From assembly GCA_902776725.1 (NCBI GenBank), contig CACYQX010000006.1, forward strand, positions 1 to 59,706: 59,706 nucleotides of DNA, in the 5' to 3' direction. Origin of the DNA: an uncultured Eubacteriales bacterium. Lineage in GTDB: Bacteria; Bacillota; Clostridia; Peptostreptococcales; Anaerovoracaceae. Positions 10,394 through 41,888 of this stretch are shown one piece after another; the first letter of the stretch is position 1; each line of letters starts with the position of its first letter. Under the pieces are notes generated by a model, which was not told where the DNA came from, searched no databases, and saw only the letters and a program-made list of their open reading frames with translations. The position numbers and the translations under genes are program-made.

Positions 10394-10410
10394 ATAGAAT
10401 AAAAAGGAAA

Positions 10411-10438
10411 TGCGGCAGCCCATGAGTGGGCTGCCGCA
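10411..10438 (+). promoter_or_regulatory. Strong intercistronic hairpin between phnE2 and the nucleotidase gene
   Basis: TGCGGCAGCCC (10411-10421) pairs perfectly over 11 bases with GGGCTGCCGCA (10428-10438) around ATGAGT. It is followed by GATTTATTAC rather than a continuous T-run. It could be a weak terminator or a 3' stabiliser of the phn message; the nucleotidase gene begins 25 bases later. Confidence 0.6.
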
Positions 10439-10462
10439 GATTTATTACAAGGGTTACAGCAT

Positions 10463-12034: not shown

Positions 12035-12087
12035 TAATGCGTAAAGCGTACAGATAGTAAGATCAATCACAAAAGAGAGGAATAATT

Positions 12088-25514: not shown

Positions 25515-26927
25515 ATGAAAATTGCAAATTTATTTACAGCAAACGATATGACGCAGGGTACTCCCTGGAAAACAATTGCCCGATTTGCATTCCCAATGCT
25601 TATCGGGAATTTTGCGCAGCAACTCTATAATACGGTTGATGCCGTAGTTGTTGGGCGAAGTCATTGGGGATATACGGCTTTGGCATCTGTTGGAACGGCA
25701 CTTCCGATTCTAAACCTCTTGCTTGCACTCTTTATAGGCATCGCAACAGGCGCGGGAATCCTCGTAGCGCAGTATTACGGAGCAAAGGACAGAGAACGCC
25801 TTGAGAAGACGATTGGCTCGTGCATATTCCTTTGCTTTGTGGCAACGGTTGTGATAATGACGGTTGGTCCGCTTCTTACGGGACCGATGCTTCGTGCGGT
25901 AAATACGCTTCCGGAACTCTATGAGGCAAGCCATAACTACTTAAGCGTTTTCTTTATCGGCATAGCGGGATTCATGTTCTATAATATTTTTGCCGGAATT
26001 ATGAGAGGACTCGGTGACTCGTTCTCGGCGCTTTTATTCTTGATTATCTGCGCGACATTAAACGTAATCGGAGATCTTCTTTTGGTCGAGAAGCTTGGCG
26101 TTATGGGTGTCGCAATCGCTACGGTGGCATCTCAAATCATCTCCGCAATTCTCTGCTTTCTTAAACTCAGAAGAATGAAAGATGTATTCACACTTAAACT
26201 TGAATACATAAAACCGCAAAAGGAATTCATAAGAAATATCATAAGACTCGGAGTTCCATCGGGTATAACCCAGGCAATCATGAGTGCGAGCATGATGTTC
26301 GTTCAGGCTCTCATCAACAGCTTTGGCGATGCTATGTTTGTGGCTGCAAATATAATGGTAATGAGGGTTGACGGATATGCTATGCTGCCGAACTTCAGTT
26401 TTGGTCAGGCTATGGGTACATTCGCCGGACAGAATGTCGGTGCAGGAAGATTGGATAGACTAAAGACAGGAACGAGGCAGGGTACAGCGATGACGGTTAT
26501 AACGTCATTGATACTGGTACCGCTGATAATACTTGCGGGACCGTACCTCATGGATTTATTTGCACCTGGAAATACGGAACTTATAAATCTTGCGATGGGG
26601 ATGCTCTACATCCTTGCCTTTGGATATATAGCGGTAGGTGTGACGCAGTCGCTTCAGGGAGTTATCCGTGGAGCGGGCGATACCATGACACCGATGTGGA
26701 TAACGATTCTGAACACGGTATTCTTGCGCATTCCGCTAGCCTACGGTTTGGTTGCGCTTGCAAAGCATCTCGGTGCAAATGTGATTATGCAGGAGAGAAT
26801 GATTTTTGTTTCGCTCCTAGTTATTTGGGTGAATGGTGCAATTGTGTCCACCATCGTCTATTTTAAAGGCCGCTGGCGTAAGAAGATTCAAGACGCACCA
26901 CAACTTCAATCTCGGCGCCTTCCATAG
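25515..26927 (+). CDS. MATE family multidrug/metabolite efflux protein
   Basis: This cation-coupled exporter has 470 residues and twelve predicted membrane helices in two related halves. The N-terminal segment MTQGTPWKTIARFAFPMLIGNFAQQLYN is the classic MATE start. AVVVGRSHWGYTALASVG and the central GVPSGITQAIMSASMM (start of the second half) also fit. It belongs to the DinF/NorM-like bacterial branch; the substrate cannot be predicted. Its last 65 bases overlap the end of the convergent AraC-type gene on the other strand, so the two coding ends are antisense to each other. Confidence 0.93.
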   Translation: MKIANLFTANDMTQGTPWKTIARFAFPMLIGNFAQQLYNTVDAVVVGRSHWGYTALASVGTALPILNLLLALFIGIATGAGILVAQYYGAKDRERLEKTIGSCIFLCFVATVVIMTVGPLLTGPMLRAVNTLPELYEASHNYLSVFFIGIAGFMFYNIFAGIMRGLGDSFSALLFLIICATLNVIGDLLLVEKLGVMGVAIATVASQIISAILCFLKLRRMKDVFTLKLEYIKPQKEFIRNIIRLGVPSGITQAIMSASMMFVQALINSFGDAMFVAANIMVMRVDGYAMLPNFSFGQAMGTFAGQNVGAGRLDRLKTGTRQGTAMTVITSLILVPLIILAGPYLMDLFAPGNTELINLAMGMLYILAFGYIAVGVTQSLQGVIRGAGDTMTPMWITILNTVFLRIPLAYGLVALAKHLGANVIMQERMIFVSLLVIWVNGAIVSTIVYFKGRWRKKIQDAPQLQSRRLP

Positions 26928-28005
26928 TGAATTCAACTGAGGTATCGCCGAGCGGGTTTCCGTTTTCATCGGTGACTTTGATAAACAGTTGCTTTGGCAT
27001 TTCGGAATGGTTTTCTTCGGAGAAATCCAAGAAGACTATTCCTTTTTCTTTTGATGTAAGTTCGTTCTCCGCATCCGAACTCAGTCCGTAAAGCATACCT
27101 CTGATGCTTTTAATGGCGTGTGAAATCGGGCAGTCGTCAATCTGTTCGGGGTTAACGATGCTCATGACGAGAGGCTGGTAATTCTCGCGATGATCTTCGG
27201 GGGAGAGCCCATACCATTTCTTGAAATACTTTTCGTAATAAGCCGTGGTGGAGAATCCTACGTCCTTGGCTATCCTGGAAATCTTTTTATTGGTATCAAG
27301 AAGGGGGATTTCCGAACGTTCGACTCTTGCAAAGCAGAGAAAGTCTCTGAAACTCATCCCTGTATATTTTCTGATCAGATGCGAGAGATGGAAGGTTGAG
27401 AGGTGCTCCATCTCGGCAATATTCTCAAGACTGATTTTGTTTGGGTAGTTCTCGTAAATATAACTTATGATACGCGAAAGCCGCTCTATCGTGAGCGGGT
27501 TTTCCTCTCTTACCGAAACGGGGATTTGGTTTTCGATGACAAAGACGTTAAAATTCTGATTGAGATATTTAATCAAATCCACCGTGCCGCTTATGCATTC
27601 GCTCTTATAGTTGGGACCTTTACGCATATATTGGAGAAGAATTTTGAGGACGAGCTTTCTGAGATCGTCCTGCTTGGAGTCGGTGGCGCGTATGGCATTT
27701 GTTCTATATGCGCTCTTTCTGAGGTCGGGAAAGTATTTCTCAAAGAACTCATTGCTTATCTGAATTACAGCTACTATGTTTTCGCTTTCCGTTTCGGATA
27801 GGGAATGAATCTCGTTTCCGTTGTTGGTAAAGATATCGCCCTCGGAGAGTATGAACTTTCCGTAGCTGTTTGTTAGGTTGATTTTGCCGGAAAGAACAAA
27901 GATAAACTCGATATCGCTGTGATAATGCAGCGGAATATTCTTTATCCTGGCAATCCTGATGTTTACCGGAAAATCCACCGGATAGTTTATGTTCTGAAGA
28001 AGCAT
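26863..28005 (-). CDS. AraC family transcriptional regulator with C-terminal extension
   Basis: The 380-residue protein has an N-terminal cupin sensor domain (residues ~1-110; ARIKNIPLHYHSDIEFIFVLSG is its typical opening). The AraC DNA-binding domain is at ~175-275, with two helix-turn-helix motifs (LENIAEMEHLSTFHLSHLIRK and ISRIAKDVGFSTTAYYEKYFKK). About 100 further residues follow the DNA-binding domain, ending in a beta-rich part (ENGNPLGDTSVEFTMEG). Regulators of this class normally stop soon after the second motif, so the tail is unusual. The gene is divergent from the glycyl radical enzyme gene and is its likely regulator; 12-base direct repeats sit in the shared promoter region. AGGAGG precedes the ATG. 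Confidence 0.92.
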   Translation of the reverse strand: MLLQNINYPVDFPVNIRIARIKNIPLHYHSDIEFIFVLSGKINLTNSYGKFILSEGDIFTNNGNEIHSLSETESENIVAVIQISNEFFEKYFPDLRKSAYRTNAIRATDSKQDDLRKLVLKILLQYMRKGPNYKSECISGTVDLIKYLNQNFNVFVIENQIPVSVREENPLTIERLSRIISYIYENYPNKISLENIAEMEHLSTFHLSHLIRKYTGMSFRDFLCFARVERSEIPLLDTNKKISRIAKDVGFSTTAYYEKYFKKWYGLSPEDHRENYQPLVMSIVNPEQIDDCPISHAIKSIRGMLYGLSSDAENELTSKEKGIVFLDFSEENHSEMPKQLFIKVTDENGNPLGDTSVEFTMEGAEIEVVVRLESSYASGL

Positions 28006-28090
28006 GGTCGTCCTCCTAAATATGCTGATTGTTATAATATCGGCCCATCGTGATGGCAGTATCTCAGCAAGATAATTATATTATTTAGCA

Positions 28091-28137
28091 ACTTAATTAT
28101 TGCACGAAATCCCCAAAAAATCTATACTTAATTATTG
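28091..28137 (+). promoter_or_regulatory. Promoter of the glycyl radical locus with 12-base direct repeats (candidate AraC operator)
   Basis: ACTTAATTATTG occurs twice on the same strand, at 28091-28102 and 28126-28137, 35 bases apart. TTGCAC (28100-28105), 17 bases, TATACT (28123-28128) forms a good promoter. The first repeat overlaps the -35 and the second overlaps the -10 and start region. Direct repeats touching the -35 are the usual AraC-family arrangement. A short CTGCC/GGCAG hairpin with a T-run follows in the leader (28156-28173). Confidence 0.55.
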
Positions 28138-28189
28138 AAAACAACGCATTTATAGGCTGCCAAAGGCAGATTTTTATAAGGAGGATAAG

Positions 28190-30574
28190 ATGCTTACACC
28201 CAGAGTCGCCAAAATGAGAGAAAAAGTTATTTCGACTCGTCCCAGCATTACGGCAGAAAGGCTGGTTCTTGCAACCGAAGCATATCAGAAATTTGCGGGA
28301 GAAGCGGTTCCGATTTTCCGCGCCAAGGTAACAAATTACGTCATGGAAAATATGACTACGCTCATTCTCGATGACGAGCTTATTGTTGGTACCGCAACGA
28401 ATAAGTTCAAGGGTGCGAGCCTCTTCCCGGAGTTTCAGTCGAGCACCAAATTCTATCTCGAAGAGCTCGACGAGTTCCCCGTGAGAACAAAGGATCCATA
28501 CGACATATCTCCTGCGGACAGAGAGCTCATCCTGAAGACTCTTCCTTATTGGGAAGGTAAGGCGATGCAGGATATAGCAAAGCCCTCGCTTCCGCCGCAT
28601 ACGGTAGAGTGCATGAACGACGATATCATTACCGTGGGTCTTACCAACGGAGTTTCGGGCGAAACAACATGTGATCACGAAAAACTCCTTACCATCGGTC
28701 TCAAGGGCTATATGGAAGAATGTCAGGAGAATATCAACAAGACCATGCCAAAATGCCAGCTCGACGAAGAGAAGATTAACTTCTGGCAGGCTTGTATCAT
28801 TCAGTCGCAGGGACTTATTACCTATGCTCATAGAATGGCGGATGAGGCTGAGCGCCAGGCTGCCGAGTGCAAGAGCAAAAAGCGTAAGAAGGAACTTCTT
28901 CAGATTGCCGAGAACTGCCGCGTAGTTCCGGAGAATCCGCCAAAGACATTCCAGCAGGCACTCCAGATGGTTTGGTTTGCTCACGTATATTTCCACATCG
29001 AGGTTTGCACCACTGCTAACGGCTTTGGTCGCTTTGACCAGTATATGTGGCCTTATTACAAGAAGGACGTAATCGACGAAAAGAATATCACTGAAGAAGA
29101 GGCTCTAGAGATGCTCGAATGCCTATATCTTAAGGCTTGCGAAGTATTTGAGGTTAGAGATCGTTGGTATGCGACATCGTTTGCGGGATATCCGATGTGG
29201 GAGATTCTCGTTGTCGGCGGACAGACACCTGACGGGAAAGATGCGACCAATGAACTTTCGTATGTATGTCTCGAAGCTGCGAATCAGCTCAAGACAACTC
29301 AGCCAGTAATGGCGGTAAGAGTTTGGGAAGAGACGCCCGAAGCTCTTATCAGAAAAGGTTGCGAGATGATTCAGGACGGACAGGCGAATCCGGGATTCTT
29401 TAATGACAACGCCGCGATGAAGATGGCGCTCGGCAAAGGCTGCACAATAGAAGAAGCCAGAGATTGGACAATCGTTGGATGCATTCAGCCGGGTCCGGGA
29501 GGTGGAGCGACGGACGGATCGCCGGATGCCGGCTATGTAAATATGGGCAAGATGCTGGGCTTTGTACTGCATAACGGAATCGATCCGGATACAGGAAAGA
29601 AGATGGGACTCGAGACGGGTGACCCGAGAGAGTTCAAGAATATAGAAGAATTCAAGGATGCTCTCAAGAAGCAGATTCTTCACCATTACAGAATGGTCTG
29701 CGACGGATACAATATCATGCAGAGCATGCATCAGACGAGATATCCGGTTATATTTGCAGGAATGCTCACAAAGGGCTGCGTTGAGAGCGGACGCTCGGTT
29801 CAGCACGGCGGTGCCAAATATACGACGGCGGGACTTTATATAACGGGTGCTGCAAATCTTGCGGACTCGATTGCCGCTATTGAGAAATGTGTGTTTGAAG
29901 ATAGAGATATCACGATGGACGAGCTCATTAATGCGCTCGACAAGAACTTTGAGGGCGAAGAGAGAATGCGTCAGCTGCTTCTCAACAAGCCACCAAAGTT
30001 CGGAAACGACGACGAGTATGTTGACGGAATCTATCGTGAGATGATGCAGTTCATCGCGGAGAACGTTCAGGAATGGCCCGATGCGAGAGGCGGAAAGTAT
30101 TCCTTCAACGTTCACTCTCAGACTGTAAACGTATCGCATGGTCTTGTTACGGGTGCGACTCCGGACGGAAGACTTGCGGGCGATCCTTTCTGCGACAATG
30201 CATCTCCGATGATGGGTCGTGACGTGAGCGGTCCGACGGCGACAGTAAAATCCGTTGCCTCCATGGGACAGGAAAACTTCCACGACGGTGCGCTCTTCAA
30301 TCTCAGATTCGATCCAAAGGGCGTAGCGGGAGAGAAGGGTCTTGCGAGTATCGAAGGAGTAATCAAGACTTATTTCAAGCACGGCGGGGAGCATATTCAG
30401 ATCAACGTTGTGGATGACAAAACGCTCAAGGCTGCGCAGAAGAATCCTGAAAAGTATCGCGGACTCATGGTAAGAGTTGCGGGATATATGGCGTATTTCA
30501 CGGAACTCGACAAGTCTGCACAGGATACGATTATTTACAGAACAACTCATTTCAAAGAAGCCGATATGGCATAA
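28190..30574 (+). CDS. Glycyl radical enzyme of unassigned substrate (PFL-like family)
   Basis: This is a 794-residue, oxygen-sensitive radical enzyme. The glycyl radical site is Gly765 in RVAGYMAYF, 29 residues from the end, as in the family. The thiyl radical cysteine is Cys431 in VGCIQPGPGGG. In known diol, choline and hydroxyproline enzymes the motif is usually GCVEP, with Glu as general base. Here the equivalent position is Gln433, and pyruvate formate-lyase has a Cys-Cys pair instead. Overall length and the N-terminal TERI-like PSITAERLVLATEAYQ segment place it with the dehydratase/decarboxylase branch, but I cannot name the reaction. The activase gene follows 46 bases later. No microcompartment shell genes are present. 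AAGGAGG precedes the ATG, and the divergent AraC gene is the likely regulator. Confidence 0.92.
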   Translation: MLTPRVAKMREKVISTRPSITAERLVLATEAYQKFAGEAVPIFRAKVTNYVMENMTTLILDDELIVGTATNKFKGASLFPEFQSSTKFYLEELDEFPVRTKDPYDISPADRELILKTLPYWEGKAMQDIAKPSLPPHTVECMNDDIITVGLTNGVSGETTCDHEKLLTIGLKGYMEECQENINKTMPKCQLDEEKINFWQACIIQSQGLITYAHRMADEAERQAAECKSKKRKKELLQIAENCRVVPENPPKTFQQALQMVWFAHVYFHIEVCTTANGFGRFDQYMWPYYKKDVIDEKNITEEEALEMLECLYLKACEVFEVRDRWYATSFAGYPMWEILVVGGQTPDGKDATNELSYVCLEAANQLKTTQPVMAVRVWEETPEALIRKGCEMIQDGQANPGFFNDNAAMKMALGKGCTIEEARDWTIVGCIQPGPGGGATDGSPDAGYVNMGKMLGFVLHNGIDPDTGKKMGLETGDPREFKNIEEFKDALKKQILHHYRMVCDGYNIMQSMHQTRYPVIFAGMLTKGCVESGRSVQHGGAKYTTAGLYITGAANLADSIAAIEKCVFEDRDITMDELINALDKNFEGEERMRQLLLNKPPKFGNDDEYVDGIYREMMQFIAENVQEWPDARGGKYSFNVHSQTVNVSHGLVTGATPDGRLAGDPFCDNASPMMGRDVSGPTATVKSVASMGQENFHDGALFNLRFDPKGVAGEKGLASIEGVIKTYFKHGGEHIQINVVDDKTLKAAQKNPEKYRGLMVRVAGYMAYFTELDKSAQDTIIYRTTHFKEADMA

Positions 30575-30620
30575 GTGATATCAAAGGGGAGAAGCGGATT
30601 ATTTCGACTAAGGAGATGGA

Positions 30621-31553
30621 ATGTCAGAAAAAATGACTGCGCTGGTTGGCGGAATACAGAAATTCTCCACCGAGGACGGCCCGGGTATCAGAACGACAGT
30701 ATTTCTGAAGGGCTGTCCGCTTCACTGTGCTTGGTGCCATAATCCTGAACTCATAAATTTTGAGCAGGAGCTTATTCAAATGCCAAACAATTGCATCAAA
30801 TGTGGATATTGCATAAGCAAATGTCCGCAGGATGCAATTTTTTTTGATGAAGAGAATAAGATTGCAATCGACAGAAGTAAATGCGATCGCTGTATGATAT
30901 GCGTTAATGCATGCACTGCAAATGCGCTGAGAACAGTAGCGACTGAGATGACGGCAGAGGAGATCATAAAGAAGGTCGAGCAGGATAAAGAGTTCTATGA
31001 GCACACCGGAGGTGGTATGACCATAAGCGGTGGTGAAATGCTCGCACATCCGGACTTTGTTCGTCAGCTTATAGAACTTGCGGGAGAGAAGGGGATAAAC
31101 GTATGCCTGGATACGTCAGGGCACGGAGATGGAAACGTGCTCGCGGAGCTTGCGGCATATCCGAATGTTACGGACATCCTCTACGATATGAAGGCTATAG
31201 ATTCCGCTGTTCACAAATCATATACGGGTGTCGACAACGAACTGATTCTTTCAAACCTCGAGAAGCTGGCAAAGGACGAAAAACTTGCGCCCAAGATTCT
31301 CATGCGCATGCCCCTCATTAACGGAATTAACGACGGAGATGCTATAATAAAGAGGACGGCTGAGTTTTATAAGGAACTCGGTGTAAAGAGGGTTACGCTT
31401 CTTCCGTACCATATACTCGGCATTTCAAAGAAGCGTCATATAGGCGGAACGCCGCTCGAGTTTAAGGCACCGCCCGACGAGAGAATTGACAATATCAAAA
31501 AGACGATAGAGAAAGTATCCGGAGCTTCAGTGGAAGTGATGGGAAGAGTTTAA
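30621..31553 (+). CDS. Glycyl radical enzyme activase (radical SAM)
   Basis: This enzyme uses S-adenosylmethionine and a 4Fe-4S cluster to generate the glycyl radical on its partner. The 310-residue protein has the radical SAM triad Cys32, Cys36 and Cys39 (GCPLHCAWC). A ferredoxin-like insert with two cluster motifs follows: Cys58-61-64-68 and Cys88-91-94-98. The TISGGE motif is at about residue 135. The two-cluster insert is typical of activases for dehydratase-type enzymes and absent from the PFL activase. A GGAG-type site precedes the ATG, and the gene follows the glycyl radical enzyme in the same transcript. Confidence 0.95.
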   Translation: MSEKMTALVGGIQKFSTEDGPGIRTTVFLKGCPLHCAWCHNPELINFEQELIQMPNNCIKCGYCISKCPQDAIFFDEENKIAIDRSKCDRCMICVNACTANALRTVATEMTAEEIIKKVEQDKEFYEHTGGGMTISGGEMLAHPDFVRQLIELAGEKGINVCLDTSGHGDGNVLAELAAYPNVTDILYDMKAIDSAVHKSYTGVDNELILSNLEKLAKDEKLAPKILMRMPLINGINDGDAIIKRTAEFYKELGVKRVTLLPYHILGISKKRHIGGTPLEFKAPPDERIDNIKKTIEKVSGASVEVMGRV

Positions 31554-31568
31554 TTGCAGGAGGTTTAG

Positions 31569-32732
31569 ATGAAGAGCATAAGTGAACGCGTGGATGTACT
31601 GCGTGATGAGGCAAGACAAATAGCGCACGAGATTCATGAACATCCGGAACTCGGAAACGAAGAGTTTCATTCCGTTGAGCTGCTGACAGAATTCATTATG
31701 AAGCACGGCTTTAGCGTGGCGACGGGTCAATGCGATATGCCGACAGCGTTTATAGGAACATATAAGGGTGATAAGCCCGGACCTGTCATAGGCTTTCTCG
31801 CAGAGTACGATGCTCTTCGCGGAATGGGGCACGCCTGCGGACATAATATGATCGGAACTCTCGCGTGTGTGGCTGCGATTGCACTGAAAGATGCCGTTGA
31901 CGAATACGGTGGAGAGATAAGAGTAATAGGAGCGCCAGCGGAAGAGACCATGGGCGGAAAATGCGCTTTGGCGGAAGCCGGTTATTATGACGATCTCGCG
32001 GTTGCAATCATGGGACATCCGGCGAGCGTTCATGCGGCTAGCAGCAATATGATGGCAATCGACTCTCAGAAGTTCGAGTTCTTTGGCAAGGCCGCGCATG
32101 CCGCTGCGAGTCCCGATAAAGGAATAAACGCGTTAAATGCTGTGCTCTTTACATTCAGAAGCATAGATGCGCTCAGACAGCATACCGTAGATTCCGCACG
32201 TGTTCACGGGATAATAAGAGATGGCGGACAGGCTGCGAATATAGTTCCGGATTATGCGAGCTGTGAATTCTATATAAGGGCCGAGGACTCCAAATACTGT
32301 CTCGAGTTCAGCGATCGCGTCAAGAATTGCGCGAGAGCCGCTGCGCTTGCGACCGGTGCGGAACTCAAGATAACAAATTTCGAAGGTTTCTACGATAACC
32401 TTGCAACCAACGAGACTCTTTCAAAGAGAAATATCGAGCACACTTATGAATTTGGTGTGACTCAGGAGATAACAAAGAGGGAGCATACAGGCTCGTCCGA
32501 TATTGGTAATGTAAGTTATAGATGTCCTTGCATACATCAGTGGTTTGATGTAGTGGGTGATCCCAATGTTCCACTTCATACCGAGGAACTTTGTGCCGGT
32601 GCGGATTCTGATTACGGATATGAGCAGATGTTTATAGTTGCTAAGGCATTTGTTGCGACTGCGGAAGATGTCCTTACCCAGCCGGAATTCCTTGCTGAGA
32701 TAAGGGCGGAGTTCGACAGGCTTGAACGTTAA
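31569..32732 (+). CDS. M20 family amidohydrolase (AbgB-like), first copy
   Basis: This zinc/manganese-dependent amidohydrolase cleaves an amide bond, as in N-acyl amino acids or p-aminobenzoyl-glutamate. The 387-residue protein carries the family features: HEHPELGNEEFHS near residue 21, the metal-binding GHACGHNMIGT near residue 88, and the catalytic Glu region APAEET near residue 122. A dimerisation domain follows from about residue 170. It begins 15 bases after the activase stop with GGAGG upstream, so it belongs to the glycyl radical transcript. A paralogue with the same motifs lies at 36331-37518, at the other end of the redox gene block. The substrate is unknown. Confidence 0.93.
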   Translation: MKSISERVDVLRDEARQIAHEIHEHPELGNEEFHSVELLTEFIMKHGFSVATGQCDMPTAFIGTYKGDKPGPVIGFLAEYDALRGMGHACGHNMIGTLACVAAIALKDAVDEYGGEIRVIGAPAEETMGGKCALAEAGYYDDLAVAIMGHPASVHAASSNMMAIDSQKFEFFGKAAHAAASPDKGINALNAVLFTFRSIDALRQHTVDSARVHGIIRDGGQAANIVPDYASCEFYIRAEDSKYCLEFSDRVKNCARAAALATGAELKITNFEGFYDNLATNETLSKRNIEHTYEFGVTQEITKREHTGSSDIGNVSYRCPCIHQWFDVVGDPNVPLHTEELCAGADSDYGYEQMFIVAKAFVATAEDVLTQPEFLAEIRAEFDRLER

Positions 32733-32801
32733 CTGATGCGCAGGAATTTTTATATGTAAGTCATGTAGATAAATTGTTTTACGATTGTGAGAGGTGAAAA
32801 A

Positions 32802-34502
32802 ATGAAACTTGTTGTAATAGGCGGAGTGACGGGCGGTGCATCGACTGCCGCAAGAGTAAGAAGGCTTGATCCCAATGCGGAAATTGTTCTTTTTGAGAGA
32901 GGAAGGGATGTATCGTTCTCCAACTGTGCGCTTCCATATAGATTGTCGGATGTCGTCAAGAGCAGCGACTCGCTCATTCTTATGGATCCTGTCGATTTCA
33001 AAGAGCGCCATAACATAGAGGTTAAAACCAGACATGAGGTCACCAAGATAGACAGAAAGAATAAAACTGTTAGCGTAAAGAATCTGAATACGGGAAAAGA
33101 AAGAAAAGTAAAATACGATAAACTGATGCTCGCTCCGGGTGCATCCCCGATTCTTCCAAAGAGCATCAAGGGAATCGATTCACCCCACGTATTTACTGTA
33201 AGGAACGTAGAGGACATCGAGAGACTTAAAGCATATATCGACATGGAAGGAATCAGCGATGTAGCCATAGTCGGCGGCGGCTTTATCGGTATAGAGGTTG
33301 CCGAGAATATCGCTGAGGCTGGAAAGAAGGTAAGGCTCATAGAAGGCATGCCGCAGATTCTTGCGCCCTTTGATGATGATATGGTGCAGATGCTCCATAA
33401 GGAACTCTTGGATAATGGCGTAGAACTCTATCTCTCGCATACGGTAAAGGAAATCGCAAAGGCTCATGTCGTTGCTGAGAATGACGGAAAGAAAGTCAAG
33501 GTTCCCGCGCAGGCAGTTGTAATGGCTGTTGGCGTTATGCCGGAGACAAAACTTGCGCGAGATGCCGGTCTTGAAATAGGTGAGACCGGATGCATCAAAG
33601 TGAATCACAATTATCAGACCTCGGATCCTGACATCTATGCCGTCGGTGATGCTGTAGAAATATATAATGCACTCGCGCATAAGCCCGGTAAGCTCGCGCT
33701 CGCAGGACCTGCGCAGCGTCAGGCACGCCAAGCCGCAGATCATATGTATGGAATACATAATGACAATAAGGGTTATATAGGATCATCGTGTCTAAAGGTG
33801 TTTTCAATGAACGCAGCATCGACGGGGCTTAATGAAAGAGCCGCTGCCGCCGCAGGATATAATTATGATTCTGTTCTTCTATATCCAAACGACCACGTGG
33901 GGGTTATTCCGGGAAGCAATTATGTCGCTTTTAAGCTCGTATTTGAAGTTCCGAGCGGAAAGATCCTAGGTGCGCAATCGATAAGCCGAGGCGAGGCAGT
34001 AAAGCGAGCAGATGTAATCGCAACCATGATTACTATGGGCGGAACGCTTGAGGATCTCAAGGAGCTCGAACTCTGCTATTCGCCGATCTATGGTACGGCA
34101 AAGGATATAGTTAATATGGCAGCTCTCGTAGGTCTAAATATTCTATATGAGAGCTTCAAGCAGGTTCACGTAAGCGAAGTAAGAGGCCTGGTAGAAAAGA
34201 AGGCATTTATTCTGGATGTAAGAGAGCCGGGTGAATATAAGGCGGGACACATCAAAAGTTCCGTTAACATTCCGCTTTCGCAGCTTTGGGAGCGCATGAA
34301 GGAGATTCCCAAGAACAAGACCATATACATTCATTGCAGGTCGGGACAGAGAAGCTATTATGCTCTTAAATATCTTGCGGGTCACGGCTATAAGGACCTC
34401 TACAATGTGAGCGGAGGATTTCTCGGCATAAGCTATTATGAATACTTCCGCGATCAGACAGAAGGAAGAAAGCCGATATTGGATAAGTATAATTTCAGAT
34501 AA
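32802..34502 (+). CDS. CoA-disulfide reductase with C-terminal rhodanese domain
   Basis: A 566-residue FAD-dependent pyridine nucleotide-disulfide oxidoreductase of the CoADR/NADH peroxidase group. N-terminal FAD binding is seen in VVIGGVTGGASTAARVRR. The single redox Cys42 lies in SFSNCALPY, and a second nucleotide fold has DVAIVGGGFIGIEVAEN. The C-terminal 105 residues are a rhodanese with DVREPGEYKAGHI and the persulfide Cys in HCRSGQRSY. Such fusions reduce CoA disulfides, CoA persulfide or polysulfide. The ATG at 32802 is chosen for its GAGAGGTG site, 15 bases inside the longest frame. It sits in the glycyl radical transcript and is followed 18 bases later by a small Cys-rich protein gene. 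Confidence 0.93.
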   Translation: MKLVVIGGVTGGASTAARVRRLDPNAEIVLFERGRDVSFSNCALPYRLSDVVKSSDSLILMDPVDFKERHNIEVKTRHEVTKIDRKNKTVSVKNLNTGKERKVKYDKLMLAPGASPILPKSIKGIDSPHVFTVRNVEDIERLKAYIDMEGISDVAIVGGGFIGIEVAENIAEAGKKVRLIEGMPQILAPFDDDMVQMLHKELLDNGVELYLSHTVKEIAKAHVVAENDGKKVKVPAQAVVMAVGVMPETKLARDAGLEIGETGCIKVNHNYQTSDPDIYAVGDAVEIYNALAHKPGKLALAGPAQRQARQAADHMYGIHNDNKGYIGSSCLKVFSMNAASTGLNERAAAAAGYNYDSVLLYPNDHVGVIPGSNYVAFKLVFEVPSGKILGAQSISRGEAVKRADVIATMITMGGTLEDLKELELCYSPIYGTAKDIVNMAALVGLNILYESFKQVHVSEVRGLVEKKAFILDVREPGEYKAGHIKSSVNIPLSQLWERMKEIPKNKTIYIHCRSGQRSYYALKYLAGHGYKDLYNVSGGFLGISYYEYFRDQTEGRKPILDKYNFR

Positions 34503-34520
34503 GAGGTTTTGGAGGCTGCT

Positions 34521-34952
34521 ATGAACAAGATGACTGAAGAAAAAGCAAAGGAATTAATGAGCGTCGGCTATCACTGTTCGCAGGTGCTCGCTTATCATAT
34601 CGCGGATAAGCTCGGTCTCGATAAGGATGAATGGCTAAAGATTACATCGGGACTCGGCGGTGGCTGCAATCACGGAGATACATGCGGTGCAATAACGGGA
34701 GCCATTATTGGACTCGGTGCCGCTTACGGATATAGCGAAGAAAATCCCGGAGAGAAAGATGACATCATCAAAGGAAAAGCGAGGAGGCTCCAGGAACTGT
34801 TTATAGAAAAGCACGGTTCGGTTCTCTGCAGAGATCTGCTCGACGGATATGACAATGCGGATCCGAATAGAGTAAGCAAAGACGATACCTGGGCTAACTG
34901 TGGCAAATACTGCGAAGATGCCGCGGCTATATTCGACGAATTGCTCGACTAG
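34521..34952 (+). CDS. C_GCAxxG_C_C family protein
   Basis: A 143-residue soluble protein of the C_GCAxxG_C_C family (redox/metal protein of unknown function). Conserved cysteines appear in YHCSQVL near residue 17, GGGCNHGDTCGAITGA near residue 50, VLCRDLL near residue 96 and NCGKYCEDAA near the end. The spacing fits metal or disulfide chemistry. The ATG at 34521 follows GGAGG. An in-frame TTG 12 bases earlier would place the start over the binding site. It follows the CoA-disulfide reductase and may work with it in sulfur or thiol redox; this is inference. Confidence 0.88.
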   Translation: MNKMTEEKAKELMSVGYHCSQVLAYHIADKLGLDKDEWLKITSGLGGGCNHGDTCGAITGAIIGLGAAYGYSEENPGEKDDIIKGKARRLQELFIEKHGSVLCRDLLDGYDNADPNRVSKDDTWANCGKYCEDAAAIFDELLD

Positions 34953-35012
34953 AATTCGAATGAAAATAATCGTTTAAAAGATATTCGGTTTTAATTTATG
35001 GGAGGTTTACGG

Positions 35013-35768
35013 ATGAGCGAGCGTAAGGTTTGTGTAATAACGGGTGCCACCGGTGGAATAGGCGCCGCAATGGTTAAGAAATTCTATGATAACGGCTTTG
35101 ATGTTGTTATGTTGGACATCAAAGAAGAAGTTCTCGCAGGACTTGCCGAAAGAGAAGGATATGAAAAGGAGCGCGTAAGCTGGTACGAAATTGATGTTTC
35201 CAGCGAAGAAAGCGTCAAGGAAACAATAGAAAACATAAAAGAAAGCAAGGGCAGAATCGATGCGCTTGTAAATGCCGCGGGAATACTTGGTACGTACAAT
35301 ACGACCGCGGAATATGGCTTTGATAATTTCAAAAAGATTTATTCAATCAACGTATTTGGACCATTCCTAACTATGATGTATACGCTACCGATTATGAAGG
35401 AGCAGGGGAGTGGTGCAATCGTCAACTTTGCTTCAGTATCGGGAATGACGGGCTATACATATGAAATCGGTTACGGCTCCAGTAAATGGGCGGTAATAGG
35501 AATGACCAAGAACGTGGCCAACGAATACGGCGAGTTTGGAATACGTGCAAACTCCGTAGCGCCGGGCTGGGTTAATACCGGTATGTTCAAGAAGTCACTC
35601 GAGGACTATGCTGCGCAGTTCGGCAAGGGAGAGGTTACGCTTGGGCCTATGGGAAGACCCGCAGAACCACAGGAAATCGCCAATGTGGTTTACTTCCTTT
35701 GCACTGACGAAGCTTCATATATAAACGGCTCCAATATCCTGGTAGACGGTGGAATGATGCTCGGATAA
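35013..35768 (+). CDS. Short-chain dehydrogenase/reductase
   Basis: A 251-residue classical SDR, acting on an alcohol or ketone with NAD(P). It has the cofactor motif TGATGGIG (about residues 10-17), NAAG near residue 90, and the catalytic Ser around residue 141 (NFASVSG). The YxxxK motif is YGSSK near residue 154, followed by PGWVNTG and the C-terminal GSNILVDGGMM typical of FabG-like enzymes. The ATG at 35013 is preceded by GGGAGG. In this transcript it could act on the product of the glycyl radical enzyme, for example a ketone or aldehyde; that is a guess from order only. Confidence 0.92.
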   Translation: MSERKVCVITGATGGIGAAMVKKFYDNGFDVVMLDIKEEVLAGLAEREGYEKERVSWYEIDVSSEESVKETIENIKESKGRIDALVNAAGILGTYNTTAEYGFDNFKKIYSINVFGPFLTMMYTLPIMKEQGSGAIVNFASVSGMTGYTYEIGYGSSKWAVIGMTKNVANEYGEFGIRANSVAPGWVNTGMFKKSLEDYAAQFGKGEVTLGPMGRPAEPQEIANVVYFLCTDEASYINGSNILVDGGMMLG

Positions 35769-35772
35769 ATGC

Positions 35773-35778
35773 TATAAT
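35773..35778 (+). promoter_or_regulatory. -10 element before the small membrane protein gene
   Basis: A TATAAT hexamer lies directly after the SDR stop codon, about 35 bases before the TTG start. No good -35 is seen, as it would lie within the SDR gene. Confidence 0.35.
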
Positions 35779-35810
35779 CTATATGAAATACATATGATTG
35801 GAGAAGCGTT

Positions 35811-36314
35811 TTGAAGCAAAAAGAAGTTAAACAGATTGATAGAGTTCTTATTCACAGAATAACCGATGAGAATATCGTCTCAGCGCCGGTTTTAAAGAGC
35901 ATGCGTCAGTTTGAAGAGAATTCAAAACTCTGGAAGGGCGCGTTCTTTACATTTCTTGTTGCACTGGCTGCGAGGTTTTTGATAGGTCTTTTGTTTGGAG
36001 AGAGTTTCGCGGGAGGTTTTGAGAATTCTCGACTTGCTCTCTTTCTTGCGATGGTGGCGATAGTCTGCTTTATCGCATTTGCCGCGTTATTCATCAGAGA
36101 GAAGACGTTCCTAAAGAATAAATGTGCATGCCCGAACTGCAAGGAAGGCTTTGCATATTATCTTTACAGCTCAAACGGAGACGGACAGTGTGGCAGAAAA
36201 TATTTCCTGGACGATTGCAATACAGTGGGAATAAAGCAGGGAATGGTCACTTGGAGTCCGTTTGTGCTCCCAAAGAACTGTCCAAACTGTGAAGAAAAGA
36301 TTTGGAAAGAATAA
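35811..36314 (+). CDS. Unrecognised membrane protein with zinc-ribbon-like tail
   Basis: I do not recognise a family. The 167-residue protein would start at a TTG preceded by TTGGAGAAG. Residues ~1-40 are soluble. Two membrane helices follow (FFTFLVALAARFLIGLLFG and LFLAMVAIVCFIAFAALFI). The C-terminal 60 residues contain CACPNC and CPNCEEK, two knuckles 37 residues apart that look like a zinc ribbon, with a third CG in between. The topology suggests the ribbon is cytoplasmic. It lies between the SDR and the second M20 gene, 16 bases before the latter's ATG. Confidence 0.75.
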   Translation: MKQKEVKQIDRVLIHRITDENIVSAPVLKSMRQFEENSKLWKGAFFTFLVALAARFLIGLLFGESFAGGFENSRLALFLAMVAIVCFIAFAALFIREKTFLKNKCACPNCKEGFAYYLYSSNGDGQCGRKYFLDDCNTVGIKQGMVTWSPFVLPKNCPNCEEKIWKE

Positions 36315-36330
36315 GAAAGGAGTAATGCAT

Positions 36331-37518
36331 ATGGAAAAAGCTTTGATTGAAAGAGTAGAAAAGACGGTTGAAGCTCTGAAGCCTGAGTTAAAGGAACTCA
36401 CGCTGAATATTCACAGCAATCCCGAACTTGGTAATCAGGAACATAAGGCCTATGCTTGGCAACTGGAACTTCTCAAGAAATATGGCTTTGACATCACCGA
36501 GCATTACTGTGATATAGAGACTGCATATAAGGCTGTCTATAAGGGGGCAAAGCCGGGACCAAAGATCGCTATGCTCGCTGAATACGACGCTCTTCCAAAA
36601 CTCGGACACGGATGCGGACATAATTTGATCTGCATGATGTCCGTGGGTTCAGGAATTGCGATGAGGGAATATGTCGATGAATTCGGTGGCGAGATTTATG
36701 TAATAGGTACGCCGGCCGAAGAGACAGAAGGTGCCAAGGTCGCAATGTCTAACGCCGGAGCGTTTGATGAAATGGATGTAGTTATGATGGCACATCCGGC
36801 ATATGAAGATGCGAGTTCTTGGAATACAATGGCTATGATCTGCAGAAGCTATGAGTTCTTTGGAAGAAACGCACACGCTGCGTCAGCGCCGGAAGAGGGA
36901 CTCAATGCTCTGGATGCTATGATTAACTTCTTCAACCTTATAAATGCTATGAGACAGCAGACAAAGGACGGAACGAGAATCCACGGAGTTATCTCGCACG
37001 GTGGAGAAGCTCCGAATATAATTCCAGACTATACGAGAGCGCTCTTCTATATCAGATCGCCTAAATGGGCACAGCTTGAAGAACTTGAAAAGAGGGTAGA
37101 GGCTTGTGCTGCCGGAGCTGCTATGGCAACCGGAACCACATATAAATGGAACTACGAAGAAGTTGACTTCATGGATACCAACAGCAATATGTATCTAAAC
37201 AGACTTGCTTGCGATACCATGGAAGAACTGGGTGTTCCTATGACATGGATGGGAGCCGAGACGTCGATGGGATCTTCGGACCTCGGAAACGTAAGCTATA
37301 GATGTCCGTCGATTCAGATCACAAATTCGCTCGGCGTTCATCCGAGTGGAAAGAAATACGTTGCTCATACGACGGAGTTCGCGGAACTCGCTTGCACGGA
37401 TTGGGCGATAGAGCATGCATTCAAATTCATCGAAGGCTTCGTCCTCACGGCTTGCAAGCTCATGACTGAGCCGGAACACATCGCGGCCATCAAAGAGGAG
37501 TTCAGTAATATGAAATAA
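36331..37518 (+). CDS. M20 family amidohydrolase (AbgB-like), second copy
   Basis: A 395-residue metal-dependent amidohydrolase paralogous to the 31569-32732 product. The matching landmarks are NIHSNPELGNQEHKA, YKGAKPGPKIAMLAEYDAL, GHGCGHNLICM and GTPAEETEGAK. Their spacing is nearly the same as in the first copy, so the two probably arose by duplication and act on related substrates. The ATG at 36331 is eight bases from AAGGAG; an ATG six bases earlier is too close. The gene's stop is followed at once by a long inverted repeat that separates it from a convergent gene. Confidence 0.92.
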   Translation: MEKALIERVEKTVEALKPELKELTLNIHSNPELGNQEHKAYAWQLELLKKYGFDITEHYCDIETAYKAVYKGAKPGPKIAMLAEYDALPKLGHGCGHNLICMMSVGSGIAMREYVDEFGGEIYVIGTPAEETEGAKVAMSNAGAFDEMDVVMMAHPAYEDASSWNTMAMICRSYEFFGRNAHAASAPEEGLNALDAMINFFNLINAMRQQTKDGTRIHGVISHGGEAPNIIPDYTRALFYIRSPKWAQLEELEKRVEACAAGAAMATGTTYKWNYEEVDFMDTNSNMYLNRLACDTMEELGVPMTWMGAETSMGSSDLGNVSYRCPSIQITNSLGVHPSGKKYVAHTTEFAELACTDWAIEHAFKFIEGFVLTACKLMTEPEHIAAIKEEFSNMK

Positions 37519-37709: not shown

Positions 37710-38852
37710 TTATTTCATAAGCAGTCTCCTGATGAGGTTTGCGATGAGGTCGTAGCGCTTTTCAACCGTATCGAGAAGGAAGTACTCGTTCTCGTTGTGG
37801 AGATTGTCGCCGTGCGGACCGCATGCATCGATTATCGGCGTTCCGCCTCCCGAAACAAAGCTTGCGTCCGACGCACCGCCTGAACTCTCGAAATCGAATT
37901 CGTAATCCATCTTTGCGGCTTCTTCCTTTAGAATCTCAACCATCATCTTTGTTTCATCCGTGAATCTCATAGGCGGCATATCGCTGTATTTGATATATTC
38001 GCTCTTTATTCTCTCGTCAAACGGATTGGCTACAAGCTCATTAAACGCGGCTTCCACAACTTCTGCCTGGCTATAGTCCATGATTCTTACGTCTATCTTC
38101 ATATGCGTATGCTCAGGAACTACGTTTGAAGCTGTTCCGCCGTTTATTACGCCGACATTGACGGTGAGCCCGGGGAGGCTCTTATGAAGCTTACTGCAGC
38201 AGTCGATCCATCGGCCTGCTTCTCTTATAGAACTTGCGCCTTTGTCAGGGTAACTTCCCGCATGCGATGCTACTCCGTGGATATCAACCCAGTATTCGAG
38301 CGAACCTTTTCTTTCGTGAACAAAATTGCCGGTTATTCTTCCGGGCTCCATATCGAGAGCGTATTTCGCGTTCTTTGCAAGCTCTAGTAGGAGTTCTCCG
38401 CTGTAAGGCGATCCGAGTTCTTCGTCGCCGTTGTTTACTATCGCAAAGCATTTGTCCGGAAACTCGTTCCTCAGTTCCCTTATTAGGTGGAGTGCCATTA
38501 AGTCTCCGGCCTTCATATCGGCTGCACCGGGACCTTTGACATAGTTTCCGTCGATGGAGAAGGGTCTTTCGGCCACTGTTCCGGCCGGGAAGACGGTATC
38601 GATATGTCCGATGAACATGATGTCCCAGGGCTTATCTTTACCATCCAATTCTTTCATATCGTGAGTAGTTGCGACGAGGTGAGGGTGACCTTCCGTTTCC
38701 AGCTGTCTCCTTGTGACAAAGAGACCGTCATTCTTATACATCTCCTCGAGCGCATCGGCCATCTTATTAAGACCTTCCACATCGTAGCTTCCGCTATCGA
38801 TATTGACCAATACTTCGAGCTCCTCGAGATACTTTTTAAGATCGATTCCCAT
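37710..38852 (-). CDS. M20 family peptidase (carboxypeptidase G2-like)
   Basis: A 380-residue metallopeptidase of the ArgE/DapE/CPG2 branch, clearly different from the two AbgB-like proteins. It has IMFIGHIDTVFPAG (first metal His and Asp, residues ~79-92) and GPGAADMKAGDLMAL (bridging Asp near residue 112). NNGDEELGSPYSG carries the catalytic Glu near residue 145, and GPHGDNLHNENEYF carries the last metal His near residue 350. CPG2-type enzymes remove C-terminal glutamate from folate-like or peptide substrates. AAAGGAAG precedes the ATG. It lies 70 bases downstream of the amidohydrolase gene on the same strand. Confidence 0.92.
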   Translation of the reverse strand: MGIDLKKYLEELEVLVNIDSGSYDVEGLNKMADALEEMYKNDGLFVTRRQLETEGHPHLVATTHDMKELDGKDKPWDIMFIGHIDTVFPAGTVAERPFSIDGNYVKGPGAADMKAGDLMALHLIRELRNEFPDKCFAIVNNGDEELGSPYSGELLLELAKNAKYALDMEPGRITGNFVHERKGSLEYWVDIHGVASHAGSYPDKGASSIREAGRWIDCCSKLHKSLPGLTVNVGVINGGTASNVVPEHTHMKIDVRIMDYSQAEVVEAAFNELVANPFDERIKSEYIKYSDMPPMRFTDETKMMVEILKEEAAKMDYEFDFESSGGASDASFVSGGGTPIIDACGPHGDNLHNENEYFLLDTVEKRYDLIANLIRRLLMK

Positions 38853-38922
38853 AACGCTTCCTTTCTTATTAAACAGTGGATTTTAATTTACTTTAGTAAG
38901 CTGATTCGGTGCTTGTCGATTA

Positions 38923-40311
38923 TTATTTATTGCCTTGGTATGGAATGAATTTTCCGAGCCTGTCGTCAATGATTATTCCGTTGTCTAGGGCAAGTTTTCC
39001 TCCGTTATATACACGAACAATTCCCGCGGGTGCTTCCAAATGCGAGAAATCGGCTTTGTCGATTATGGTATTCGGGTTGAATACTGTTAAGTCCGCATCG
39101 CATCCCTCGAGGATTCGCCCTTTGTTTTTTAAGTTCATGCGCTCCGCCGGCTCAAGCGTAATTTTGCGCAATGCGTCGATAAGTGGCAGGGCGTTTTCTT
39201 CTCTTACATACTTTCCGAGGACTCTCGGGAAGGTTCCCGCAATTCTCGGGTGGCCGTGTCCCGATGCCATGATTCCGTCGGATGCCACCATACCGTTGGG
39301 ATTGACAATGGCTTCTCTTATTTCGTCCTCCCTCATAACAAAGGCGACGGCGAGCATCGTAGGATGATTCTCCCTTGCGTCGTGGAAGATCTTCTCGTCA
39401 CAGAAGACATTTTTATATGGATCCGCCGTGAGCATTATCTTGTCGTAGTCGACGCCCCAGGTCTCGAGACATCCGTCCTCGAATACGGCGGAGCCTATAT
39501 ATGTTGAGAAGGCATCGTATGGATAGGTATCGTAGTTCAAAGTCTCGTCGACGTCCATCGCTTTGTTTATATGTTCCAGGCATTCTGTCATTGCGCCATA
39601 GGCGGAGCAACTTGAAAGATGAGAAATCTGGAATTTTGGCTTGATGGCTGCCGAGAACCTTATCATTTCGTCAACGTTATCTATATTCTCGTGGCATTCG
39701 TCCCTGTAGTGGGCGCTAACTATATAGTTCGGGTCTTCGAGTCTGCTTACCGCAAATAGCATCTCGTCAAATGTCATCGCCGGGTCGTATTCGATTCCAA
39801 ATGATATTCCGCACGCGCCTTGCTCGATTTCATTCATGAGCTTATCTCTAAGGATTACGCGCTGACCGGTGGAGGAGGGGGCATGACGACCGATCCCCAT
39901 TTCTGTTCTGAAGAAATTGTATCCGGACTGAATCATATAGTTTACGGGTGCGCCGCCGAGTTCGTCCAGAACTCCTTTGAAAACATCAAGAGGCTGCCTT
40001 TGGGTTCCGCAGTTTCCTCCGACAGCTGTGGTGACGCCCATCTCGAGCATGCACTTGGAGGCATAGAACTTCTTGCCTTCCGTGAGGAAGCGCTCCTCGT
40101 GCATATGGATGTCTATAAATCCGGGGGAGACGATTAAGCCTTCCGCATCAAACAAAGAAGCTGCTTCGGGTTCGCTTTCTCCGATGTAATCGATTTTTCC
40201 GTCCTTTATTCCTATATTTGCTTTCTTTAGTGAAGCGCCTGAATTGGCCTTACCCGTCTGATAATTTCCAAAGTCGGGATAAAGAGCATTGACTATAAGA
40301 AGATCCAACAT
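38923..40311 (-). CDS. Amidohydrolase family protein, N-acyl-D-amino-acid deacylase-like
   Basis: A 462-residue TIM-barrel metal-dependent hydrolase. The N-terminal beta-sandwich strand with GLIVSPGFIDIHMHEER supplies the HxH metal ligands at about residues 68-70. Further ligand positions include VSAHYRDE and FQISHLSSCSAYG (His near 230), with Asp in MVASDGIMASGHGHPR near residue 345. The last segment closely resembles D-aminoacylase and DUF3604-like deacylases, which remove acyl groups from N-acyl-D-amino acids. AGGAGGTTTTTATG supports the start. It is co-oriented with the M20 peptidase and divergent from the urea transporter gene. Confidence 0.9.
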   Translation of the reverse strand: MLDLLIVNALYPDFGNYQTGKANSGASLKKANIGIKDGKIDYIGESEPEAASLFDAEGLIVSPGFIDIHMHEERFLTEGKKFYASKCMLEMGVTTAVGGNCGTQRQPLDVFKGVLDELGGAPVNYMIQSGYNFFRTEMGIGRHAPSSTGQRVILRDKLMNEIEQGACGISFGIEYDPAMTFDEMLFAVSRLEDPNYIVSAHYRDECHENIDNVDEMIRFSAAIKPKFQISHLSSCSAYGAMTECLEHINKAMDVDETLNYDTYPYDAFSTYIGSAVFEDGCLETWGVDYDKIMLTADPYKNVFCDEKIFHDARENHPTMLAVAFVMREDEIREAIVNPNGMVASDGIMASGHGHPRIAGTFPRVLGKYVREENALPLIDALRKITLEPAERMNLKNKGRILEGCDADLTVFNPNTIIDKADFSHLEAPAGIVRVYNGGKLALDNGIIIDDRLGKFIPYQGNK

Positions 40312-40464
40312 AAAAACCTCCTATAAAAAGAACACTACTTTCTACATTATATTATGTATTATACCACAGAATAATGCCTAGAAAGGTGTATATACTATTG
40401 CATTGTCATGTGTATTGTGGCAAAATGTCTCTGTAAACTTTAGCTCGGTTTGTAGGAGGGTGAA

Positions 40465-41535
40465 ATGGGGGCACTTGCTTCATGTGATTTTCCGCTTTTG
40501 AATAAGTGGAAGGATGTAGTGGACGCAAACAAGGTACTTGGATTTATTGATGCGGTTCTATGTGCGTTTGCGCAGATTATCTTCTCGGACAATTCGTTTT
40601 CGGGACTCGTACTTCTCATAGCCAGTTTCTTGGTGTCGCCTCAGGTAGGCATAGCTGGACTCTGGTCGGCGATAGTATCGGTTGCCTTTTGCAAGATAGT
40701 TGAGGCGCCTCCCGTTGTTACCAGGATGGGGGTTCATTCGTTCTGCTCGACTCTTTCCGGAATCATTATGGGCGGACTTGTATTTGTAGATGGAATAGAT
40801 GTGAGATTCTTTATATTCTTTACGCTCTCGTCGATTTTCTGCACGATTACCGTTCTTGCATGCAGTCATATCTTTTCAACATGGAATGCATCTGCGCTGG
40901 GACTTCCGTTTGGATTTACGACTCTCGTGTTTATGGGCGCTGCTCAGAATATGGGATTTGTTTCTCAGTCGGAAACAATAGTCGCGCATGCCGCGTCCAA
41001 TTTATCTCCTCAGGATATTCTTCCGTGGGGAAGCGGAGAAATAATTCAGGCGATATATTCCGGCATCAGCGAACTTCTCGGAGGAACCGAATGGATCATA
41101 GCGGCGCTTATCGGAGTTGCGCTTTTGATGTCATCAAGGATAGATTTTATATCTGCTATACTCGGTGCTGCGATTGGAGCATTGACCGCGATGTTTTTCG
41201 GTGTACCCAATATACCTGTGCTGATCGGTCTCTATGGATATAACGGAATGCTTCTCATGTTCGTTCTTAACGGCAGGGCATTTAAGATTACTCCGAAGTC
41301 ATATATACTCAATCTGATTCTTGCGGGCATGACTTCTATACTCGCTGCGTGGATGTCCGTAAGCTTTGGTTTGGTAGGTGCTGTATGCACTGCGTTTCCG
41401 TTCTCGATCATATGCTGCCTGATGATGATTGCAGCGCCGAATATGGACCTCGAATACAGGCCTGCAATCTACTGGGGTGTGCCCGAAACAGTAGGTAAAA
41501 TCAAGGCCAAGGCAGAGGCTGAGAACAACGCTTAA
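40465..41535 (+). CDS. Urea transporter (UT family)
   Basis: A 356-residue membrane channel of the UT family, passing urea down its gradient. Ten hydrophobic segments in two repeated halves are visible. Family landmarks are AQIIFSDNSFSGLVLLIASFLVSPQ (half one, residues ~37-61) and NASALGLPFGFTTLVFMG. The second-half repeat begins FFGVPNIPVLIGLYGYNGMLL. AGGAGG precedes the ATG. No urease genes are seen in the window, so urea uptake for hydrolysis here is unproven; a related small amide is possible. It is divergent from the amidohydrolase gene, with 153 bases between. Confidence 0.9.
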   Translation: MGALASCDFPLLNKWKDVVDANKVLGFIDAVLCAFAQIIFSDNSFSGLVLLIASFLVSPQVGIAGLWSAIVSVAFCKIVEAPPVVTRMGVHSFCSTLSGIIMGGLVFVDGIDVRFFIFFTLSSIFCTITVLACSHIFSTWNASALGLPFGFTTLVFMGAAQNMGFVSQSETIVAHAASNLSPQDILPWGSGEIIQAIYSGISELLGGTEWIIAALIGVALLMSSRIDFISAILGAAIGALTAMFFGVPNIPVLIGLYGYNGMLLMFVLNGRAFKITPKSYILNLILAGMTSILAAWMSVSFGLVGAVCTAFPFSIICCLMMIAAPNMDLEYRPAIYWGVPETVGKIKAKAEAENNA

Positions 41536-41828: not shown

Positions 41829-41888
41829 GTAAAAAGTTTTTTGAGAAGGGGTAAAGAAAACTCCGCAATCGTAAAGGAAGGCGAAAAA

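Follow-up and report, generated by a model that had tools for sequence, protein, structure and literature searches.

A glycyl radical enzyme clade with glutamine in place of the catalytic glutamate and a tentative link to cationic amino acids

Introduction

The characterized glycyl radical enzymes (GREs) that most resemble the protein described here are HplG, a C-N lyase of trans-4-hydroxy-D-proline, and the glycerol/1,2-propanediol dehydratases (GDs; structures 1r8w, 5i2g and 9rco). In HplG, a ketyl radical is formed and the neighbouring C-N bond is then lost. CutC, the choline trimethylamine (TMA) lyase, is a C-N lyase of an amino alcohol, and HypD has the same fold and acts on amino-acid-like substrates. 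Glu491 is reported to be the catalytic base of CutC (PMC12451663), and the catalytic Glu is retained in the other solved eliminases that we aligned. Here, we analyzed a GRE gene in a stretch of 59,706 nt (contig CACYQX010000006.1, hereafter the window) from an uncultured Eubacteriales bacterium of the Anaerovoracaceae, whose genome is 85% complete. An earlier note on this DNA had reported Gln433 at the position of this Glu, stated that the locus departs from known ones and proposed, as speculation, a pathway of amide hydrolysis followed by radical chemistry. We found that the enzyme belongs to a well-supported clade that has kept Gln433, and that the genes around its orthologs tentatively suggest a role in the use of a cationic amino acid.

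Results and discussion

Comparison with characterized GREs

The window protein is a complete GRE of the pyruvate formate-lyase (PFL) fold with its own activase: it has a PFL-like domain, a C-terminal glycyl radical domain with the RVxGY motif, an active-site Cys and an adjacent activase gene. The genes that were later found to be constant in the clade are as follows in the window:

28190..30574, + strand: GRE, 794 aa, with Cys431, Gln433, Glu158 and Gly765 (PF02901, 651 bits; PF01228, 108 bits)
30621..31553, + strand: radical SAM GRE activase with a ferredoxin-like insert (TIGR02494, 299.6 bits, cut-off 174.35; Radical_SAM and Fer4 matches)
26863..28005, - strand: divergent cupin/AraC-type regulator, 380 aa (HTH_18, Cupin_2)
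34998..35768, + strand: short-chain dehydrogenase/reductase (SDR), presumed carbonyl reductase (adh_short_C2, 196 bits)

The 50 matches listed for the GRE include HypD, CutC, propanediol/glycerol dehydratases, two N-methyl-4-hydroxyproline dehydratases, YbiW with 1,5-anhydroglucitol-6-phosphate, IseG/IslA, HpsG and succinate synthases. Among them, the closest solved GRE was HplG (39% identity), and solved decarboxylases and succinate synthases were more distant (24-29%). The closest folds were those of propanediol/glycerol dehydratase and HplG, which were tied (Z 48.3-49.0). The threshold that separates most GREs of different function is reported to lie above identities of 40-50% (PMC11528403). 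Seven function-specific NCBIfam GRE models, which have cut-offs of 1000-1150 bits, gave scores of 344-603 bits, and the broad PFL2-3 subfamily model was narrowly missed (673.7 versus 678.2 bits). These comparisons support the placement of the GRE outside every characterized group tested (that is, groups with a solved structure or an NCBIfam model), and no characterized clade with Gln at this position was found among them.

Individual identities were also considered and rejected. HplG retains Glu429 where the window GRE has Gln433, and has Asn156 where the Gln clade has Glu158; identity with HplG failed at the catalytic Glu two residues past the Cys. Four GD residues (Glu435, His164, His281 and Ser282) correspond to Gln, Glu, Thr and Ala in the window GRE, and membership in this group was rejected because Glu435, His164 and Ser282, which have functional roles in GD, are replaced by Gln433, Glu158 and Ala276. 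In addition, no microcompartment genes were found among the ten locus proteins scanned with Pfam. CutC resembles the window GRE in having an acidic residue, Asp216, in the Glu158 column, but it is only 34% identical over the 596 residues used and has Glu491 in place of Gln; together with a TIGR04394 score of 534.2 bits (cut-off 1050), this excluded the CutC assignment. CutC residues are numbered here with an offset of 304, taken from Cys793 versus Cys489, such that residues 795 and 520 of the construct become Glu491 and Asp216. HypD is 33-34% identical, its Glu is retained in the aligned HypD genes, and the HypD model NF043068 gave 603.3 bits (cut-off 1100) for the window GRE; 24 genes above this cut-off in 78 genomes of the order scored 1396-1545 bits. 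Finally, the aminoacyl radical enzymes, reported as a family with Ala, Ser or Thr in place of the radical Gly (PMC11528403), were ruled out by Gly765.

Conservation and phylogeny of the Gln433 clade

Relatives were searched in one genome per species (84,980 species), and the best 80 of the 113 relatives were retained. Among these, 41 loci (L002-L042) encoded a GRE 73-97% identical to that of the window, and the next best was 36% identical. We then aligned 106 GREs (the query, four PDB chains and the loci) after removal of duplicates, frames of <560 codons and matched stretches of <500 residues. Position 433 was occupied by Gln in 45 sequences, Glu in 56, Val in three and Asn in two. The 45 Gln rows were the 41 near members (in which the window is counted twice, as the query and as L001), L091 and L102 (52-54% identity) and L103 and L106 (44-45%). 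The Val (L098, L099 and L108, with the motif CVVPH) and Asn (L053 and L054) sequences lay outside the Gln clade. The Gln433 column contained Glu435 of glycerol dehydratase, Glu429 of HplG, the Glu of a HypD gene and Glu491 of CutC, in agreement with the substitution first noticed in the window alone. Cys431 and Gly765, also named at that time, were invariant in an alignment of 23 sequences.

A FastTree phylogeny was built from 63 of the 106 rows (short rows or those >90% identical to a retained row were dropped, and the CutC fragment was retained). All 28 Gln tips formed a single clade with a support of 1.0, and the next node joined L105, L107 and HplG to this clade with a support of 0.935. 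Both L105 and L107 carry Glu at position 433. The simplest account would be one change from Glu to Gln next to the HplG branch, which was afterwards retained. All 41 near members have Glu158, as do L091 and L102, and His takes its place in L103 and L106; the Glu158 column corresponds to Asp216 of CutC and His164 of GD, in a region (near residues 150-160) where the local alignment is gapped. GRE identity over the 41 loci (73-97%) was higher than that of the activase (56-80%). On the basis of these sequence comparisons, the Gln sequences appear to be an unnamed clade of GRE eliminases with a relocated or missing catalytic base.

Several members of the clade occur in unusual settings. One metagenome-assembled genome (MAG; isolate RUI514) has three GRE-bearing contigs (L011, L040 and L042), which represent either several copies or mixed-strain fragments, and one orthologous GRE (L086, G004 contig 238) was flagged in the genome search with one in-frame TAA. 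The window GRE is the one PFL-like gene in its host genome at the present 85% completeness. L102 (1966-11581) contains two tandem Gln-type GREs (52% and 54% identical to the query); a regulator of the AraC type and an activase accompany each of them, and genes for an SDR and an NhaC-like carrier come next. In L106 (5237-11349), the Gln-type GRE begins 15 bases past a 2-hydroxyacid-dehydrogenase-like gene and is located downstream of genes that by eye look like a glutamate mutase system.

Gene neighbourhood of orthologous loci

The window proteins, together with aldo-keto reductase (AKR), transporter and M20 proteins encoded beside orthologs, served as queries against 45 orthologous loci (L002-L042, L104, L113, L114 and the window). 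Counts were restricted to the 23 loci flanked by 4 kb or more on each side, and 22 loci with short flanks were dropped. The AraC regulator lay near the GRE in 21 of these 23 loci, and the count for the activase was also 21. A carbonyl reductase was found in 19 loci, either an SDR (12) or an AKR (7), and no locus had both. Three types of transporters, ArcD/NhaC-like (7), LysP-like (4) and YfcC-like (3), together covered 14 loci, or 15 when a second NhaC type was included. Thus, the constant parts of the clade are the AraC regulator, the GRE, the activase and a carbonyl reductase, and a transporter joins them in 14 of 23 loci. On a shallow ortholog tree, the 24 tips labelled by reductase type showed six switches, against a mean of 7.4 after shuffling, and the 18 tips labelled by transporter type showed five, against a shuffled mean of 9.7. 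Because SDR and AKR never occurred together and six switches were observed, the two unrelated reductases replace each other, and this repeated exchange is the strongest sign that a carbonyl compound is made or used at the locus.

As a control, 49 loci around other GREs were collected, 19 of which had adequate flanks, including six of the same order (L109, L110 and L117-L120). An activase match was found in 13 of the 19 and a further GRE match in six, and none of the remaining partner genes passed the same thresholds in these loci.

The remaining genes of the window locus are:

31569..32732, + strand: M20a metallohydrolase, HmrA/Xaa-Arg-dipeptidase-like (TIGR01891, 228 bits; PDB 3ram, E 2.6e-73; 7yh4, E 9.9e-63)
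32787..34502, + strand: CoA-disulfide-reductase-like flavoprotein with a C-terminal rhodanese domain (TIGR03385, 424 bits, below the cut-off of 578.8; Pyr_redox_2, Rhodanese)
34509..34952, + strand: C_GCAxxG_C_C putative redox protein (PF09719, 94.5 bits)
35811..36314, + strand: 167-aa protein with a membrane-like N-terminal part by eye (no Pfam match)
36331..37518, + strand: M20b metallohydrolase, paralog of M20a (TIGR01891, 184 bits; PDB 3ram, E 5.9e-69; Xaa-Arg dipeptidase, E 1.4e-58), with the start taken as the ATG at 36331 (a TTG is listed at 36262)

The gene order agreed with the earlier note, and Pfam and NCBIfam searches bore out the families at 26863-37518, including the CoA-disulfide reductase/rhodanese, C_GCAxxG_C_C, SDR and divergent AraC proteins of the earlier note. 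Shell-protein, aldehyde dehydrogenase and CoA ligase families, which had been said to be absent, were indeed not found among the ten proteins scanned with Pfam, a scan that did not extend to the rest of the window. The description of the M20 pair as AbgB-like had to be revised: M20a and M20b are 41% identical to each other, and their best solved relatives are HmrA and Xaa-Arg dipeptidase; AbgB was a weaker match for M20a (E 4.5e-15) and gave none at 1e-10 for M20b.

Conservation of these further neighbours was limited. The CoA-disulfide reductase was found near the GRE in nine of 23 loci, EamA and DUF2284 proteins in eight each and the C_GCAxxG protein in four. HmrA and PM20D2 are the best solved relatives of the M20 pair, yet an M20 hydrolase of this kind (M20a, M20b or the L104 type) lay near the GRE in only six loci. 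The full gene set of the window recurred only in the two nearest loci, L002 and L003, and L004 has the set without M20b; the 167-aa protein was found only in L002-L004 among the 44 other loci. Therefore, the proposed sequence of amide hydrolysis and radical chemistry fits some lineages and not the clade as a whole. The lack of neighbour conservation that the earlier note had named as refuting its proposal was half borne out: the regulator, the activase and a carbonyl reductase are constant, and the other neighbours are not.

Substrate clues and proposed reaction

We tentatively read the locus as encoding an uncharacterized glycyl radical eliminase for a cationic, lysine- or ornithine-like amino acid, an assignment to which we give nearly an even chance. 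The transporters, the relatives of the M20 hydrolases and the host aminomutases together point, with moderate strength, to such a substrate. The LysP-like protein matched a solved lysine permease with an E-value of 1.3e-145, and its best NCBIfam model was an amino acid permease subfamily (548 bits, cut-off 735). This transporter link could not be seen in the earlier note because no such gene was found near the GRE in the window. M20a and M20b are related to solved PM20D2/HmrA-type M20 hydrolases (E 1e-58 to 1e-73), and the title of a cited reference calls PM20D2 a beta-alanyl-lysine dipeptidase. The host genome encodes a lysine 5,6-aminomutase (PF09043, 894 bits) and has a second, weaker PF09043 match (148 bits) that we take to be an ornithine aminomutase; the host therefore probably ferments basic amino acids. 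The sister group includes HplG, which breaks a C-N bond in a hydroxy amino acid; this position also suggests a reaction of this kind.

In the proposed reaction, the activase would generate the Gly765 radical, which would convert Cys431 to a thiyl radical, and the latter would abstract hydrogen from the carbon of the substrate that neighbours the leaving group. These steps follow from the GRE family, and the later ones are more conjectural. A C-N or C-O bond would then break to give a carbonyl product, which the SDR or AKR may reduce at the expense of NAD(P)H. Since Glu158 is conserved in the near clade, a carboxylate is still available there at another place, and Glu158 may hold the substrate ammonium or serve as the base in place of the Glu lost at 433. 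In the window lineage, M20a and M20b might act beforehand and release the amino acid from an N-acyl form or a dipeptide.

The boldest candidate substrate is 5-hydroxylysine, because its vicinal OH and NH3+ groups would suit HplG- or CutC-like chemistry. By analogy with HplG, 5-hydroxylysine would be converted to 2-amino-5-oxohexanoate, one carbon longer than the HplG product, and then reduced by the SDR or AKR, with Glu158 standing in for the Glu lost at 433. An enzyme of this kind, a radical ammonia-lyase or dehydratase for 5-hydroxylysine, could let lysine fermenters both consume this compound and protect themselves from it: 5-hydroxylysine is reported to inhibit lysine 5,6-aminomutase and to lead to its suicide inactivation (PMC12429584), and this is the very aminomutase encoded in the host genome. 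On the other hand, many carriers of the Gln-clade GRE come from ruminants, which weighs against this candidate; to our knowledge, the plant feed of ruminants is not a rich source of hydroxylysine. We consider the hydroxylysine proposal improbable as it stands.

Alternative explanations

A number of observations weigh against a role in cationic amino acid use. The NhaC-type protein just reached the NhaC model (377 versus 370 bits) and was below the ArcD cut-off (325 versus 650 bits), and the YfcC-like protein scored 346 bits with the 'putative basic amino acid antiporter' model (cut-off 500); these transporters could therefore carry something else. Near the GRE in the window itself, no LysP-, NhaC/ArcD- or YfcC-like transporter was found, and the host genome (85% complete) gave no LysP match and an NhaC match of 36%. 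The host YfcC copy, which shares 82% identity with the YfcC-like carrier beside the L036 GRE, is located elsewhere (L128, G000 contig 4, 93403-96127), where it adjoins a gene that by eye resembles isoaspartyl dipeptidase. Lysine aminomutase is frequent among relatives (28 of 37 genomes), including 20 of 29 without this GRE. With regard to the neighbourhood, the GREs of L007 and L012 have no activase, reductase or other partner beside them (in both loci, at 10001-12367, the GRE, 86-87% identical to the query, lies by eye between surface-protein/sortase-like and peptidase-like genes), and L011 has no partner genes within 10 kb downstream. The bacteria that carry the 23 loci are related, and these loci are not independent samples. 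The control was not blind because some queries (transporter, AKR and one M20) came from orthologous loci, which favoured these loci; moreover, the order of the window supplied just six of its 19 loci, and one of the six, L109, encodes SDRs with 36-37% identity, under the 40% line.

It is possible, although in our view rather unlikely, that the enzyme is an eliminase acting on a hydroxyproline relative or on a hydroxy compound that is small and neutral, and that the transporter and M20 neighbours merely reflect an amino-acid/peptide lifestyle. The tied closest folds, the HplG branch in the sister group and the aminomutase in relatives lacking the GRE would all fit this explanation, and NhaC-type carriers can serve many solutes. 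However, the Glu common to HplG and the dehydratases is Gln in all 45 aligned members of the clade, and the same transporters and M20 hydrolases were not found in the 19 control loci, including the six of the same order. A different radical reaction that needs no base (addition, decarboxylation or the cleavage of an N-O or C-C bond), in which Gln433 would hydrogen-bond a carboxylate or carbonyl, appears distinctly unlikely. It would account for the fact that Gln cannot act as a base like Glu491 of CutC, for which this role is reported (PMC12451663), and a carbonyl reductase would also suit an aldehyde formed by beta-scission. Yet both sequence and tree put the GRE among the eliminases, the listed decarboxylases and succinate synthases are farther away, and Glu158 may supply the missing carboxylate. 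Loss of a residue that corresponds to this CutC base (PMC12451663) might also mean that Gln433 kills the reaction and that the gene is a decaying paralog without catalytic use, as the three GRE-bearing contigs of one MAG and the flagged stop in one ortholog could suggest. We find this hardly credible, given that the GRE is more conserved than its activase, that no sequence in the 23-row alignment deviates at the Cys or at the radical Gly, and that the regulator and the activase are each kept in all but two of the loci counted.

Other features of the window

The AraC regulator has 380 aa in the window, 375 in L003 and ∼620 in many other loci, and the 3' end of its gene and the end of a MATE transporter gene (25515-26927, + strand) overlap. 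Beyond the cluster, 37710-41535 encodes a divergent M20 hydrolase of the glutamate-carboxypeptidase type, a relative of D-aminoacylase whose best solved match is N-acyl-D-glutamate deacylase, and a membrane protein that by eye resembles a urea transporter. L002 and L003 also have the first two beside their GRE clusters, and L003 has the third as well. A Lys/Ala-rich repetitive protein, histone-H1-like by eye, is encoded at 41841-42335.

Implications for GREs and amino acid fermentation

A conserved and apparently functional GRE family without the base Glu would reveal either a relocated base or a base-free reaction. The gene neighbourhood narrows the search for its substrate to cationic amino acids and their dipeptides, and direct testing is possible because the clade GRE is carried by cultured organisms, Emergencia timonensis and Aminicella lysinilytica. 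If the hydroxylysine proposal were true, the locus would represent a gut-bacterial route for a collagen amino acid and would explain how lysine fermenters guard a B12 enzyme from hydroxylysine.

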